This document shows positions 39,326-45,603 of a DNA stretch of 64,000 bases, piece by piece; position 1 is the stretch's first letter, and each line of letters starts with the position of its first letter. A program made the position numbers and the translations under genes. The DNA is from Haemophilus influenzae (GTDB lineage Bacteria > Pseudomonadota > Gammaproteobacteria > Enterobacterales > Pasteurellaceae): assembly GCA_923172585.1 (NCBI GenBank), contig OV298644.1, positions 451,427-515,426 on the forward strand. Reading direction: 5' to 3'. The notes beneath the pieces are model-generated. The model was not told the DNA's origin, did no database searches, and saw only the letters and a list, made by a program, of their open reading frames with translations.

Positions 39326-39520
39326 TTATTCAAATTCATCTAACCATTTTAATAAAATAGCCTCAAGAATTGATTCATTTGATTTATTCGGATCATCGTC
39401 AAAATCTTCAAGTTCACAAATCCATTTATATAAATCAGTAAAACGAACGGTTTTTGGATCTAAATCTGGATTACGATCGTAAAGTTCTTCTGCAATTAAT
39501 TGGGCGTCTGTCCATTTCAT
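39326..39520 (-). CDS. iscX: IscX
   Basis: This 64-residue acidic protein is the last isc gene; it binds IscS and Fe and tunes cluster assembly. The sequence [20 protein letters not shown] and the [11 protein letters not shown] patch are typical. Its ATG overlaps the fdx stop (TAATG). Confidence 0.95.
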
Positions 39521-39861
39521 TAGTGAGCCGCCTCATTTGCGTGATTAAGGTTATATTTTGGAATTTCTACCACAAGATCTTCATTTCCCACGACGCATTG
39601 ACAAGATAAACGGCTATCCATTTCTAATCCCCAAGCCTTATCTAGCATATCTTCTTCTTGATCACTCGTTTCATTTAAAGAATCAAACCCCTCACGAACA
39701 ATCACGTGGCAAGTTGTACAAGCACAAGAACCATCACAAGCGTGATGAATTTCTACTCCTGCATTGTGAGCAACTTCTAATAAGTTATCTCCTGTTGCAG
39801 CATCAACGACCATACCTTCAGGACAAAAATCTTCATTAGGTAAAAAAATCACTTTTGGCAT
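39520..39861 (-). CDS. fdx: Isc [2Fe-2S] ferredoxin
   Basis: Fdx supplies electrons for cluster assembly. The 113-residue protein has the adrenodoxin-type ligands in [11 protein letters not shown] and LSCQC. ATG 39861 begins [16 protein letters not shown]. It follows hscA by 39 bases, with a one-mismatch uptake motif in the gap. Confidence 0.96.
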
Positions 39862-39900: not shown

Positions 39901-41758
39901 TTACGGATTTTCAATGTCTGACAGATTTTTACCCGTCAAAGCTTTATTAATTGACGCATTCATTCGACGAGCCGCAAATTCTTGGGTAGCAGTGTCTAAG
40001 GCTTTAATTCCTTGCGCAATTGCATCGCGATCTGAACCTAGTTTTACATCCATTAATTGTTTTAACACAGTTTCAATATGATGAAATTCATCTGTGCTAA
40101 GCAATTCAGCCCCATCTGCTTGTAACGCAACAATTACGCTTTCAATAACACGATCTGCTTCCACACGCTGCTCTGCTAATTCACGTGCTTGTAAATCCTC
40201 TTGCGCATTATCAAAAGAAGATTTAATCATTGCGGTTACTTCTTCATCAGTTAAGCCATAAGATGGTTTAATTTGTATTGAAGACTGTACTTTTGTCGAT
40301 TTTTCCATCGCTGTAACGCTTAATAAACCATCTGCATCCACTTGATAAGTCACTCTAATATGGGCTGCACCCGCTGCCATTGGCGGAATACCTCGTAGAG
40401 TAAAGCGTCCTAAAGAACGACAATCATCCACTAGCTCTCGTTCGCCTTGTAGCACATGAACAGTCATTGCCGTTTGTCCATCTTTGAAAGTAGTAAACTC
40501 TTGCGCACGAGCTACAGGAATTGTTGTATTACGTGGAATAATTTTTTCCACTAATCCGCCCATCGTCTCAATGCCTAAAGAAAGTGGTACAACATCAAGC
40601 AATAACATATCAGAATCAGTTTTATTCCCGACTAAAATATCTGCTTGAATTGCAGCACCAAGTGCCACAACTTTATCAGGATCGATTGAGGTTAATGGTG
40701 TTTTACCAAAAACTCGCCAACTTGTTCTCTTACATAAGGCACACGAGTTGAACCCCCAACCATTACCACCGCTTGCACTTCTTCGGATTCCACATTGGCA
40801 TCTTTCAATGCCCGACGACAAGTTAGCAATGAACGTTTTACCAGCGGATAAATTAATTCATTGAATTGTTCCCGCGAAATTTCTACTGAAAAATCTTGCC
40901 AAGAAATAACCGCACTTTTTTCATTAGTCAAAGTAATTTTAGCTTGGTTAGCAAGGGTTATTAGCTCACGCTGTTGATTTGCTGTTTGTGGTTTTAGCTT
41001 AGTTTGTTCTATTACCCAATCTGCAATTAAATGATCAAAATCATCTCCACCTAATGCAGTGTCTCCCCCGTTGCTAAAACTTCAAAGATACCTTTTGATA
41101 AGCGTAAAATTGAAATATCAAATGTGCCACCGCCTAAATCATAAACCGCAATAATGCCTTCCTGCCCACTATCTAATCCATAAGCGAGTGCAGCTGCAGT
41201 AGGTTCATTCAATAAACGTAATACATTTAGCCCTGCTAAACGCGCAGCATCTTTAGTGCTTTGACGTTGAGCATCATCAAAATAAGCAGGAACTGTAATC
41301 ACAACGCCAGAAAGCTCTCCGCCAAGACGCTGTTCGGCAATATGATTTAAACGCGACAAAATATCTGAAGACACTTCAATTGGACTTTTCTGCCCTTGTG
41401 CTGTAACAATTAAAGGTAATCCATTTTCACTTGCTACAAATTCATAAGGCAAACTAGGATAACGAGATTGCACATCTGCAAGACTTCGACCAATTAAGCG
41501 TTTGACTGAAATCACTGTATTTTGGGGATCAAGTGATGCTTGTTCAAAAGCTTCCAAACCAACTTTCTTTTCTGCAACGCCATAATGAACAACTGATGGT
41601 ACAAGACTACGATCTTGTTCATCATTAAGAATCACGGATTTTCCACTACGCACAGATGCTACTAAAGAATTAGTTGTTCCCAAATCAATTCCTACCGCCA
41701 AACGATGTTGGTGTGGAGCCGCTGTTTGTCCGGGTTCTGCAATTTGTAATAATGCCAT
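39901..41758 (-). pseudogene. hscA: HscA chaperone, frame broken twice
   Basis: HscA is the Hsp70 that releases clusters from IscU. The nucleotide-binding domain begins well ([34 protein letters not shown]). The frame is lost at a C5 run (41065-41069, plus strand), where one more C would give [17 protein letters not shown] second loss is at an A5 run (40708-40712), where one more A gives [15 protein letters not shown]. The substrate domain then reads normally to 39901. With both repairs the protein has 619 residues, close to E. coli 616. Two homopolymer deletions in one essential-pathway gene point to sequencing error. Confidence 0.9.
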
Positions 41759-41775
41759 ATACTTTTTTCTACTAG

Positions 41776-42462
41776 TTATGCGGCGGAATACGCCAAATCA
41801 AATTTATTTTTTTCTGTAAAGTTTGCTTGGTAATGGGTTTCAATATTGACTTCCTGTTTTTGACGTTCATCAATCGCTATTTTTCTGTCTTGGTTTAAAT
41901 CAGGCGTGAATACAAAAATTTGATTACCATCTAATTGTTTTACATCATCTTGCCAATTTTGCCAAAATAGTCCTTGATAAAAGGCCTCTAAATCGCCATT
42001 CAATGCCCAAGCTAAAAATTCTGTGTAAGTAAAATTTAAATTATGCCAAGTAAGATCTTTTGACGAATAGTAATAAATTTTGCCAATATTATCGCCTAAC
42101 AAACCACCATTTAACGCAAAATAACCACCAATCACATCATCTGCAACTAATAAATATTTTGGTTTTTCGCCTGACTCACTAAAAGATTTACTGAAATTCC
42201 AATCCATCAAGCCACGCGGTAATTTAAAACTTCCAGAACCTAAAATACGTAACCAACCATAATGAATTAAAATTCCACCTGTTTCATAGATTACTGCGCC
42301 CATTGGCGAGGATGTTGGCATTTGCATAGTAAAAAGCTCACGCTCCGCACTGGATTGATCTTTTTTAATTACTTCACAATGATTGCGAGCGTTATCAATC
42401 CATTGGGAAATGGTTATCCAAGCAGAATGTTCTAGACTAGTGAGCTGTTCAAGAGTTTGCAT
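41776..42462 (-). CDS. DUF2625 family protein inside the isc operon
   Basis: The 228-residue soluble protein matches my memory of DUF2625: [21 protein letters not shown] (split: [26 protein letters not shown]), [24 protein letters not shown] and [20 protein letters not shown]. These resemble SUKH/SMI1-like features (loading a Gly-rich D-x-x-G-G-Y-F element), but no function is established. There is no signal peptide. It lies between hscB and hscA, separated from hscA by 17 bases and from hscB by a 12-bp hairpin, and appears to be transcribed with them. E. coli has no gene here. Confidence 0.8.
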
Positions 42463-42483
42463 AGTGTTATTTATTCACATCTC

Positions 42484-42510
42484 GTAGGGGCAAATTACAT
42501 TTGCCCCTAC
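42484..42510. repeat. Intergenic dyad GTAGGGGCAAAT / ATTTGCCCCTAC
   Basis: A perfect 12-bp inverted repeat (42484-42495, 42499-42510) with a 3-base loop lies between hscB and the DUF2625 gene. It resembles dispersed Pasteurellaceae intergenic dyads rather than a terminator, since no T run follows on the minus strand. It could stop exonucleases or mark an insertion point. Confidence 0.8.
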
Positions 42511-42512
42511 AT

Positions 42513-43037
42513 TTAATCTAATTCAAAAATTCGTTCTTCCACACGCTCAATTTCTTCAGAAAGTTTACGGGTAAAACGCAGTTTATCACAGTATTGAGAT
42601 GCTCTCGCCCATTGTTGAGATTTCAAACTCTCAAAAAGTGCGGTCAATAATAATTGAGTTTCTTGTTTAATTTCTTTCGCAAAAGCATTTAATGCTCTTT
42701 CATCTTGCTGGCTTTCAACTTCTTCTAATTGTTCTCGCCACTGTAACTGTTGCATTAAAAACGCCACATCTTGCGTGCTTTTTTGTTCAAGATCTAACTG
42801 CTCGCCAGTATTAAGAGCAATGATCGCTTCAGCTCGCAAAATTGGGTCTTTTAACGTTTTTAAGGCATCATTCACTTCGGTGGATTTTTGCATCGCAACA
42901 CGTTGTTCTAAAGCACTACTTGAGACAAAATTATCTGGATGTAGAGCCTTTTGTAATTTTAAATAATGTGCATTTAGTGCTTTTTCATCCAGCTGAAAAT
43001 CAACGGGTAAATCAAAAATTTGAAAAGGATTTAACAT
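42513..43037 (-). CDS. hscB: HscB co-chaperone
   Basis: HscB is the J-protein that brings IscU to HscA. The 174-residue product has a J domain (NPFQIFDLPVDFQLDEKAL) with HPD in KALHPDNF, and a C-terminal three-helix domain that binds IscU. ATG 43037 lies 12 bases past iscA. Confidence 0.96.
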   Translation of the reverse strand: MLNPFQIFDLPVDFQLDEKALNAHYLKLQKALHPDNFVSSSALEQRVAMQKSTEVNDALKTLKDPILRAEAIIALNTGEQLDLEQKSTQDVAFLMQQLQWREQLEEVESQQDERALNAFAKEIKQETQLLLTALFESLKSQQWARASQYCDKLRFTRKLSEEIERVEERIFELD

Positions 43038-43049
43038 CAGATTATTACC

Positions 43050-43373
43050 TTAAACGTGGAAACTTTCGCCACAACCACAAGATTCTTTTACATTTGGATT
43101 ATTATATTTAAAGCCTTCATTTAGGCCTTCTTTTACATAATCCAGTTCAATGCCATTGAGATAAACGAGACTTTTTGGATCGACAATAATATTAACACCG
43201 TGCTGCTCAAAAACTTGATCTTCTGAATTTAAAACATCTACAAACTCAAGTACATAAGCTAAGCCAGAACAACCTGATGTTTTCACACCTAAACGTAATC
43301 CAATACCTTTACCACGATTATCCAAAAAGGCTTTCACTCGCTGAGCTGCTTTTTCTGTTAATGTAATACCCAT
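43050..43373 (-). CDS. iscA: IscA A-type carrier
   Basis: IscA carries Fe or [4Fe-4S] clusters to targets. The 107 residues include the three cysteines in [10 protein letters not shown] and [12 protein letters not shown] 43373 starts [13 protein letters not shown]. An uptake-sequence hairpin separates it from iscU. Confidence 0.97.
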
Positions 43374-43392
43374 CTATCCCCCAAACACCGCT

Positions 43393-43422
43393 AAAAGTGC
43401 GGTCAAAATTGACCGCACTTTT
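43393..43422. repeat. Perfect USS hairpin between iscU and iscA
   Basis: AAAAGTGCGGTCAA and TTGACCGCACTTTT form a 14-bp perfect inverted repeat (43393-43406, 43409-43422) of two facing uptake sequences. It looks like a terminator with T tracts in both directions, yet it lies inside the isc operon, 8 bases past the iscU stop. It may attenuate downstream genes. Confidence 0.85.
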
Positions 43423-43430
43423 TCACATGA

Positions 43431-43810
43431 TTAGCCTTGTTTTGCTTTATAATCAGCAATTGCTGCTTTAATTGCATCTTCTGCTAAAATAGAGCAATGC
43501 ACTTTCACTGGCGGTAATTCTAATTCTTCAGCAATTTGGCTATTTTTAATAGCCCCTGCTTCTTCTAAAGATTTACCTTTTACCCACTCAGTAATTAATG
43601 AACTAGATGCAATCGCAGAACCACAACCATAAGTTTTGAATTTTGCATCTTCAATAATGCCATTATCATCTACTTTGATTTGTAGTTGCATAACATCACC
43701 ACAAGCTGGCGCACCGACCATTCCAGTACCAACATTGCTATCTTTTTGTCCAATGATCCCACGTTACGTGGATTTTCATAATGATCAATTACTTTTTCGC
43801 TATAAGCCAT
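43431..43810 (-). pseudogene. iscU: IscU scaffold, frame broken by one base
   Basis: IscU is the scaffold on which IscS builds [2Fe-2S] clusters. MAYSEKVIDHYENPRNVGSLDK is read from ATG 43810 (split: MAYSEKVIDHYENPRN, VGSLDKK). The frame is lost at a T5 run (43743-43747); one more base gives DKKDSNVGTGMVGAPACGD. All three active cysteines (APACGD, TYGCGSA, VHCSIL) lie in the second frame, ending at 43431. The repaired protein has 126 residues. Because iscU is a core gene, a sequencing error is likely. Confidence 0.92.
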
Positions 43811-43869
43811 TTTAACTTTCCTTTTTTCAATTCTAGTGAATGCCATTGTCAGATAATGGCAACTAAATA

Positions 43870-45084
43870 TTAGTGAGCAGACCACTCAATGGTATTTAAA
43901 TCAATACCTTCTTTAAACATATCCCATAATGGCGATAATGCACGAAGTTTTTCTACCGCACCTTTCATTAAATTAATTGTGTAATCAATTTCTTCTTCAG
44001 TAGTATAACGACCTAATGTGAAACGAATTGAACTGTGCGCCAATTCATCATTTAAGCCAAGTGCGCGCAATACATAAGATGGCTCTAAACTAGCAGATGT
44101 ACAAGCAGAACCAGAAGATACTGCAATATCGCGCAACGCCATCATTAAGGATTCGCCCTCAACATAGTTAAAGCTAATATTTAAATTGCTATCTAAACGA
44201 TGTTCCATTGAACCATTTACATAAGTTTCTTCAATATCTTTTAAGCCATTATATAAACGATCACGAAGAACTTTTAAACGTGGCATTTCGGTTGCCATTT
44301 CTTCTTTTGCAATGCGATAAGCCTCGCCCATTCCCACGATTTGATGAACAGGTAATGTACCTGAACGCATACCACGTTCATGACCACCACCATGAATAAT
44401 CGCCTCTAAACGTACGCGAGGTTTACGACGAACATACAATGCACCAATACCTTTTGGCCCGTAAAGTTTATGGCTAGACATCGACATTAAATCAACAGCT
44501 AATTCTTCCAAATTAATTTCAACTTTACCAACACTTTGCGTTGCATCCACATGGAAAATTGTTTTATTTGCACGACAAAGTTCGCCAATAGCTTTAATAT
44601 CTTGTAACACACCAATTTCATTATTAGCGTGCATAATTGAAGCTAGAATTGTATCTGGACGAAGCGCAGCTTTGAATTTTTCTAAATCAATTAAACCATC
44701 AGCTTCTGGAGACAAATAAGTTACTTCAAAACCTTCTCTTTCTAATTGACGGCAAGTATCTAACACTGCTTTATGTTCAGTTTTACAGGTAATAATGTGT
44801 TTACCTTTAGTTTGATAGAAATGTGCCGCACCTTTAATTGCGAGGTTGTCAGATTCTGTTGCGCCAGAAGTAAAGACAATTTCACGAGAATCTGCGCCAA
44901 TGAGATCAGCGATTTGATTACGCGCAATATCAACAGCTTCTTCTGCTTGCCAACCAAATTTATGTGAGCGAGAGGCTGGATTACCAAATGTGCCATCGAT
45001 GGTTAGAAACGCCATCATTTTTTTCGCAACACGTTCATCGACTGGACAGGTCGCTGCGTAGTCTAAATAAATAGGTAATTTCAT
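43870..45084 (-). CDS. iscS: Cysteine desulfurase IscS
   Basis: IscS takes sulfur from cysteine for clusters, tRNA thiolation and cofactors. The 404-residue PLP enzyme has the PLP lysine in [10 protein letters not shown], the HVDATQS region, and the persulfide cysteine in [19 protein letters not shown] 45084 has TAGGAG five bases upstream; GTG 45090 adds only two residues. The start motif reads DYAATCPVD, with Cys where E. coli has Thr. Confidence 0.97.
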
Positions 45085-45150
45085 TTTCACTCCTAAATTA
45101 TGCTAAATATAACCGCACTTTTTTATTTAAAAATATACTGCTTATCTTTT

Positions 45151-45603
45151 TTATTGATTAACTAATAAATTATTAAAATCACGATGAGATTGACGTTTTA
45201 CATTACGCTTATTTACCAGCTCTGCTAACGTAATCTCATTTAAAAAACTTTCAATACGTAAACTTAAATCTTCCCAAAGTTTGTGAGTTAAACATTCCAC
45301 ACCATTTTTACAATTTTCACGCCCCAGACATTTCGTTACGTGAATATTTTCATTTACTGCCGCAATAATCATTCCTACAGAAATTTGTTCACTTGGTAGC
45401 CCTAACTGATAACCACCTCCTGGCCCGCGAACACTTTTGACTAAACCGTCTTTACGTAATTTAGCAAAAAGTTGCTCTAAATAAGATAAGGAAATATGTT
45501 GGCGTTCAGAAATATCCGCAAGGCTTACAGGCCCGCCATCTGCATTTAAAGCAATATCTAAAACGGCTGTAACTGCATAACGACCTTTCGATGTAAGTTT
45601 CAT
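45151..45603 (-). CDS. iscR: IscR, Rrf2-family [2Fe-2S] regulator
   Basis: IscR represses the isc operon when it carries a cluster. The 150-residue protein has a winged helix ([20 protein letters not shown]) and the three cluster cysteines in [16 protein letters not shown] with the His ligand. It is first in the operon, downstream of a nearly perfect type 1 IscR box. Confidence 0.97.

Follow-up and report, generated by a model that had tools for sequence, protein, structure and literature searches.

What is a DUF2625 gene doing between hscB and hscA, a chaperone pair whose genes are usually adjacent? The gene lies in a 64,000-nucleotide stretch of the Haemophilus influenzae genome (the window, taken at its full length), and a preliminary description of this DNA had offered two answers: an accessory factor of Fe-S cluster assembly, or a passenger inserted together with a dyad at the upstream edge of the gene. 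We found no paper on DUF2625 under its names in the open-licence literature.

The DUF2625 gene within the isc operon

The isc genes of the window are read from the minus strand in the order iscS-iscU-iscA-hscB-DUF2625-hscA-fdx-iscX (Table 1). The open reading frame between hscB and hscA scores 296.6 bits against the PF10946 profile (cut-off 27), with residues 4-209 of 228 matched, and this match together with the same-strand coordinates confirms the placement given in the preliminary description. The 12-bp dyad is confirmed as well, with perfect arms in the 50-nt gap after hscB. Spacing and strand indicate that DUF2625 is probably co-transcribed with the isc genes. Judged by gene order, it is probably HI0374 of H. 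influenzae Rd KW20. The label of histidyl-tRNA synthetase given to HI0374 in a table of PMC3877243 is unsupported by the Pfam, NCBIfam and fold results. In the assembly the frame of hscA is broken into three and that of iscU (43431-43885, minus strand) into two. Both genes are open in four relatives (hscA over 619 codons), and the window is one base short in homopolymer runs where the two frames break, so that sequencing error is a likelier cause than decay.

Table 1. Features of the isc locus in the window, in order of position
Feature	Position	Strand	Remarks
iscX	39326-39520	-	3' end of the isc operon
fdx	39520-39861	-	3' end of the isc operon
hscA	39901-41758	-	Three reading-frame pieces in the assembly; start at 41758
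Gap, DUF2625 stop to hscA start	41759-41775	-	17 nt
DUF2625 gene (PF10946)	41776-42462	-	228 aa, predicted SUKH fold; profile match and structure model
Gap, hscB stop to DUF2625 start	42463-42512	-	50 nt; contains the dyad
Dyad	42484-42510		Perfect 12-bp inverted repeat (arms 42484-42495 and 42499-42510, 12 nt each), 3-nt loop, GTAG ends, REP-like hairpin
hscB	42513-43037	-	174 aa; HSCB_C domain
Upstream isc operon	43050-45603	-	Presumably iscA, iscU, iscS and an Rrf2-type regulator at the iscR position
Inverted AAGTGCGGT-type pair	43393-43422		Between iscA and iscU; by eye, presumably like paired Haemophilus uptake signals

The position is a fixed property of the family members that carry the gene. 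One DUF2625 match each was found in 79 of 140 Pasteurellaceae species genomes and none in 61, while hscB was found in 139, including all 79 carriers; the loci compared are those of the 79 carriers and of the 60 non-carriers having hscB. In 78 carriers DUF2625 separates hscB from hscA, all three in the same orientation, at times with cargo genes, and in the remaining carrier (L038) it lies downstream of hscB, with no hscA match within the 10-kb stretch. The preliminary description had proposed such a map and named random placement in relatives, along with no Fe-S phenotype, as the outcome that would refute its reading; a position downstream of hscB in 79 of 79 carriers is the opposite of random placement within Pasteurellaceae. 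Non-carriers share the order iscS-iscU-iscA-hscB-hscA-fdx and differ in that hscB and hscA are adjacent, 6-157 bp apart in 58 of 60 loci. The two others are L111, with an 877-bp gap holding a glycosyltransferase ORF, and L113, whose locus stops at a contig edge.

No genus is mixed (21 carry DUF2625 and 22 do not). On a quick operon tree built from IscU, IscA, HscB and the N-terminal part of HscA of 139 operons, presence of the gene requires one change, as opposed to a mean of 45.1 with shuffled labels (0 of 500 as low), and the carrier branch has an SH-aLRT support of 89. The change count alone cannot separate gain from loss, and midpoint rooting nests the carriers as a clade; we read the pattern as a single gain without any loss among the 79 species. 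In a class-wide sample the gene was present in 2 of 369 genomes, both of them Pasteurellaceae.

The DUF2625 frame is open in 78 of the 79 carriers, with a stop in L054, and mean column identity is 68% over 60 sequences. Among the invariant residues are G62, G63, G69, R72, D109, G112, G113, N118 and Y131. In four genera the mean dN/dS of DUF2625 (Nei-Gojobori method) is 0.107, 0.050, 0.024 and 0.048, the fourth genus having a mean dS above 1; the corresponding values are 0.124, 0.067, 0.054 and 0.121 for hscB and, over the N-terminal part of hscA, 0.054, 0.026, 0.032 and 0.045. The values for DUF2625 are below those for hscB in each of the four genera, and they indicate purifying selection comparable to that on the neighbouring genes.

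Origin and predicted fold

Outside Pasteurellaceae the family occurs in Bacteroidota. A scan of 84,980 species genomes gave 77 loci, 45 in Pasteurellaceae and 32 in Bacteroidota; one of the 45 bears the public name Pseudomonas stutzeri (L149), which looks wrong. More distant members occur on plasmids of Pantoea, Burkholderia, Streptomyces and others (18 records), and neither an isc gene nor a toxin gene is annotated in the four annotated records among the five viewed, the fifth being without annotation. A ferrochelatase gene adjoins the copy of Pantoea sp. Lij88, and VOC-family and GNAT genes recur near plasmid DUF2625 in two records each. Phages gave no tblastn match to DUF2625 and E. coli genomes no DNA match. 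In a separate Bacteroidota sample the gene was present in 12 of 395 genomes; with G532 set apart, 11 loci from 10 genomes were matched and none had an isc match in the 1.5-kb flanks, and one genome of the sample (L263) has a fragment only, giving no match for the tree.

Bacteroidota DUF2625 proteins, from Pedobacter, Mucilaginibacter, Flavobacterium and others, are homologous to those of Pasteurellaceae over most of their length, with 38-51% identity in the best segment, but many of them differ in having a signal-like N terminus. In a quick protein tree of 102 rows, for which the 79 Pasteurellaceae proteins were thinned to 33 at 90% identity and matches of fewer than 150 residues were dropped, the Pasteurellaceae proteins form one clade (support 95) that is nested among Bacteroidota sequences via branches of 81-94. 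The six nearest relatives come from Sphingobacterium faecium, Pedobacter helvus, Chryseobacterium rhizosphaerae, Maribacter, Winogradskyella and a Flavobacterium. Judged from the first ATG and hydropathy rather than by a signal-peptide program, a signal-like N terminus is present in 22 of 36 chosen forms from outside Pasteurellaceae and absent from all six nearest relatives. Because the Pasteurellaceae forms begin at the core domain and their nearest relatives are signal-free, the Pasteurellaceae protein should be cytosolic. The tree, with moderate node supports, most likely reflects a single transfer from a Bacteroidota donor belonging to the cytosolic subgroup. A foreign gene that splits a usually adjacent chaperone pair, and has been lost in none of 79 species, offers a clean natural case of operon capture.

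An AlphaFold2 model computed from a 60-sequence alignment (pLDDT 88.3, pTM 0.87) points to a SUKH fold. The best solved match to the model is Tdi1 (8g0k_B; VIA Z 11.7 over 178 residues), followed by Tdi2 (8fzz_B; 11.6 over 175 residues) and Atu4351 (6itw; 10.3); SMI1/KNR4 proteins, yeast Knr4 and Syd come next with Z from 8.5 to 4.6, values below 8 being weak by the tool's own note. The placing of Tdi proteins and Atu4351 among SUKH members is our own reading of this shared match list. The match is a distant one, since the best Foldseek E value is 1.8e-3 at 10% identity and no match falls below 0.001. Sequence profiles would be insufficient by themselves to assign the fold: SMI1_KNR4 matches weakly in 3 of 60 members (best E 7e-4) and 5 of 38 (best 0.0095) and SUKH_6 in 2 of 38, and Kelch profiles match as weakly or more often (Kelch_1 in 14 of 60, best 0.067, and in 2 of 38; Kelch_6 in 5 of 60, best 0.0066; Kelch_2 in the 38-member set, best E 0.0053). 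A Kelch-repeat protein was considered and rejected; by sequence, solved structures gave weak matches only, Kelch repeats among them (E 0.0036), and the fold search puts the Kelch domain 6gy5_A at E 9.2.

Tdi1 and Tdi2 (Bacteroidales T6SS immunity) and Atu4351 resemble the model over nearly the whole chain, about residues 17-219, and their chains of 193-221 residues are of similar length to DUF2625, although only 9-11% of residues are identical in the alignments. The likeness to the SUKH-1/SMI1_KNR4 proteins (YobK, Listeria 2icg, Knr4) and Syd consists of the core fold and the weak profile matches, but the majority of the structural alignments stop at about model residue 160, which leaves the Tdi group as the main match to the C-terminal part of DUF2625. 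SUKH proteins are described in PMC3482391 as immunity proteins against the widest range of toxins, and, in the account of PMC10470768, a Tdi protein acts by inserting into the nuclease that it targets, orphan Tdi genes are common, and the proteins of such orphans give protection from Tde attack.

The surroundings of the gene differ from those of the Tdi system. No Ntox15 toxin was found adjoining DUF2625, and the gene is conserved and inherited at one place, not as part of a mobile immunity array. Among ten representative ORFs from the hscB-hscA junctions of Pasteurellaceae, eight have a Pfam family and none has a polymorphic-toxin domain, one junction ORF being a ParE toxin (L036). Thirty neighbours from 17 of the 32 Bacteroidota loci likewise include no toxin among the 24 with a family, and six have no family. 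The cognate toxin or immunity array expected beside an immunity gene is thus missing from the neighbourhoods searched, as it also is for orphan immunity genes. A role in anti-phage defence was considered as well and is unsupported, PADLOC giving no match.

With moderate confidence, and leaning on a modelled fold, we favour the view that DUF2625 is a recruited cytosolic protein of binding or immunity type that occupies a permanent expression slot in isc. The gene would have entered the ancestor of a single Pasteurellaceae clade, with Bacteroidota as the most likely source, would have landed once between hscB and hscA, and would have been retained there under purifying selection, probably transcribed with the isc genes, with the operon serving as a slot of steady expression. 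Its product, a cytosolic protein with a predicted SUKH fold, would most likely act on its own by binding and blocking a protein, for example an effector delivered by a neighbouring cell or some conserved partner inside the cell; it probably takes no working part in Fe-S assembly. The binding function, its target and the reason for the kept position are the parts that we infer. Arguing for this view are the one fixed site, the Tdi1/Tdi2-like fold, and nearest relatives that are of cytosolic type and come mostly from genomes with no NifU_N match. Immunity proteins are usually variable and patchy in distribution, and the conservation of DUF2625 without loss among 79 species argues in the other direction, as do the lack of a polymorphic-toxin neighbour, the Foldseek E values above 0.001 and the larger number of members matched by Kelch_1 than by SMI1_KNR4 (14 versus 3 of 60). 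Moreover, adjacency to isc in two phyla would have to be put down to coincidence or to a permissive site. The family gains a predicted fold and two opposed functions that can be put to the test.

Links to Fe-S assembly and other roles

The second phylum is represented by Mucilaginibacter, where DUF2625 is present in 26 of 149 genomes and, in 13 of the 26 carriers, follows iscSUA, with iscU and iscA no more than 1.5 kb upstream in the same orientation (L229, L232-L234, L236, L238, L240-L242, L244, L245, L247, L250/L252); these counts are lower bounds, as some flanks end at contig ends. Among the other Bacteroidota loci in which isc proteins were sought, none showed such linkage. In one linked genome (L208/L242) iscA and DUF2625 are separated by an FMN-reductase-like gene, and the linked DUF2625 gene of G660 is interrupted by stops. 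No HscA or HscB match was found in the isc-linked Mucilaginibacter stretches. In the protein tree the isc-linked Mucilaginibacter forms stay outside the Pasteurellaceae clade, and a single clade of all isc-linked forms is rejected with a p-AU of 0.0013, a value weakened by the naming of the group after the tree had been seen and obtained with five long rows omitted. The sequences thus suggest that the Mucilaginibacter link to isc is independent of the Pasteurellaceae one.

For a role in Fe-S assembly this second link is mixed evidence. A hydrophobic signal-like N-terminal stretch is present in 8 of 10 isc-linked Mucilaginibacter forms tested, so that these proteins would leave the cytosol and not meet IscU. 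A match to the NifU_N scaffold is absent from 14 of 32 Bacteroidota carriers, some of them incomplete MAGs, and from 5 of the 6 nearest-relative genomes; co-occurrence with an IscU-type scaffold is therefore not general among Bacteroidota carriers and holds within Pasteurellaceae, where all 79 carriers have hscB. Given the SUKH fold, the missing NifU_N matches and the signal-like N termini, the isc position alone is a weak argument for an Fe-S role. A function tied to the ISC system is unlikely to be ancestral, since most linked forms tested have a signal-like N terminus, HscA and HscB were not matched beside them, and NifU_N is repeatedly absent; it could have been acquired later in Pasteurellaceae. 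The Mucilaginibacter genes are a warning case, being adjacent to isc in another phylum while their products are apparently exported, and show how operon position alone would mislead.

The accessory factor of the preliminary description can be put in a narrower form, as a lineage-specific ISC accessory recruited after the insertion to modulate HscA, HscB or IscU, a reading that we do not favour and regard as less likely than a binding-type protein. The unbroken retention downstream of hscB, the start of the Pasteurellaceae forms at the core domain with signal-free nearest relatives, and a second link to isc that arose outside a single clade are all consistent with it; the NifU_N absences, the signal-like extension of the linked Mucilaginibacter forms and the 22 of 43 Pasteurellaceae genera that have no DUF2625 count against it. 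A Rodentibacter locus (L079) bears on both sides of the question. Here an exchange extends from inside hscB to about the hscA start (L079:3916-5620, with hscB forward) and takes in the 3' portion of hscB along with a GT8 gene and DUF2625. Relative to its congener L031, IscU is 100% identical, the N-terminal part of HscA 94%, HscB 71% and DUF2625 46%. That DUF2625 was exchanged together with the 3' portion of hscB speaks for the accessory role; that it is only 46% identical to the congener's protein beside an HscA that is 94% identical speaks against it. L078, the sister beside L079 in the tree, has a DUF2625 that is equally low in identity to that of the window.

Rather unlikely, in our judgement, is a house-keeping role outside both immunity and Fe-S assembly, for example with a partner in the membrane or envelope, in which case the position would be historical. 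Syd, one of the proteins with a SUKH fold, binds a membrane or envelope partner, and the fold also includes Knr4; the occurrence of signal-free forms beside those with a signal-like N terminus would suit such a role. The analysis yielded no direct evidence for a partner of this kind. It is less probable again, though conceivable, that a SUKH-fold protein gained by transfer now serves the HscB/HscA pair as a fixed partner peculiar to this clade, and that a Mucilaginibacter relative was drawn to isc independently. Such a partner might, for example, protect HscA, HscB or IscU against a protein that attacks them, or tune their cycle.

A neutral passenger kept by inertia is a further reading, and its support comes from the behaviour of the junction itself. 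The hscB-hscA junction, opened by DUF2625, collects further cargo genes, and does so far oftener than other junctions of isc. An extra ORF of at least 90 aa is present in 24 of 78 carrier junctions (L036, L039-L043, L047, L049, L051-L054, L057-L059, L061-L063, L065, L068, L071, L072, L078 and L079) versus 1 of 59 non-carrier junctions (L111). In 24 of the 48 carrier junctions among L031-L079 the length goes beyond 690 bp, the size of the DUF2625 gene, by over 350 bp; elsewhere in isc, gaps of more than 350 bp number 0 of 109 for iscA-hscB, 2 of 109 for iscS-iscU, 5 of 109 for iscU-iscA, 8 of 106 for hscA-fdx and 0 of 80 for fdx-iscX. The 30 carriers L001-L030 hold no such cargo, which is therefore not a feature of the window's close relatives.

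The cargo comprises glycosyltransferase family 8 (8 carriers and L111), YdcZ transporters (8), DUF559 (4) and YhcG (2), together with RhuM, KilA-N, an acyltransferase and a ParE-type toxin, where one protein per family was scanned with Pfam and the remainder assigned by BLAST clustering. Two ORFs, L054_x0 and L058_x1, gave no Pfam family. The former, a 111-aa ORF without a Pfam family at E 0.01, lies between hscB and the stop-broken DUF2625 of L054 and presumably carries a Y1/REP transposase-like motif, as judged by eye. The cargo is patchy. For DUF2625 itself, with dN/dS of 0.024-0.107 in four genera, one interrupted frame among 79 and no loss among 79 species, retention through inertia is very improbable; as neutral sequence it is refuted by dN/dS values far from 1.

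The dyad beside the gene

When as many as 3 mismatches are allowed, the window holds a single match to the dyad pattern, and none of 100 dinucleotide shuffles holds any. The exact hairpin (0 mismatches) has one copy in the genome, as has the looser GTAGGGGC...GCCCCTAC hairpin; among Pasteurellaceae the latter is found in 31 of 140 genomes, compared with 1 of 140 for a reversed control pattern. The preliminary description's term 'dispersed-type' is therefore apt at the level of the family and is not borne out within the genome. The dyad stretch folds strongly as RNA (z -3.1), but no U-run follows the hairpin on the operon strand. An intrinsic terminator of the operon was considered and rejected, the only terminator-like site being on the other strand and the number of such sites in the scan (1) equal to the shuffled mean of 1.0.

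The definition of REP elements in PMC3686654 is a 5' GTAG or GTGG tetranucleotide followed by a palindrome, and the GTAG-ended dyad agrees with it in sequence. It departs from REP elements in copy number and in an associated transposase (RAYT): the genome of the window has a single exact copy and gave no Y1_Tnp match; Y1 transposase matches were found in 8 of 10 genomes of the genus, including one with the same hairpin (G064). The dyad is present in the window and in L002 and decayed in L003 and L004, and five loci from other Haemophilus species, with DUF2625 at the same place, lack it (L001, L005, L010, L012 and L014). Since sister species keep the gene without it, the dyad did not bring DUF2625, and the earlier idea of a passenger inserted with the dyad fails on these five loci as well as on a dN/dS below that of hscB. 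The idea that a mobile element carried DUF2625 in, with the dyad as its end, can be set aside almost entirely: the dyad's REP-like ends, its place at the upstream edge of the gene and the Y1 transposases of the genus fit the idea, but the gene occurs without the dyad, the dyad decays where the gene persists, no partner hairpin with arms of at least 9 was found at the other edge of DUF2625, and the window's own genome gave no Y1 match. The dyad is a late, local and probably functionless addition beside the gene. Elsewhere in the family, G094 and G095 each hold 11 GTAGGGGC...GCCCCTAC hairpins, the maximum among the 140 genomes.
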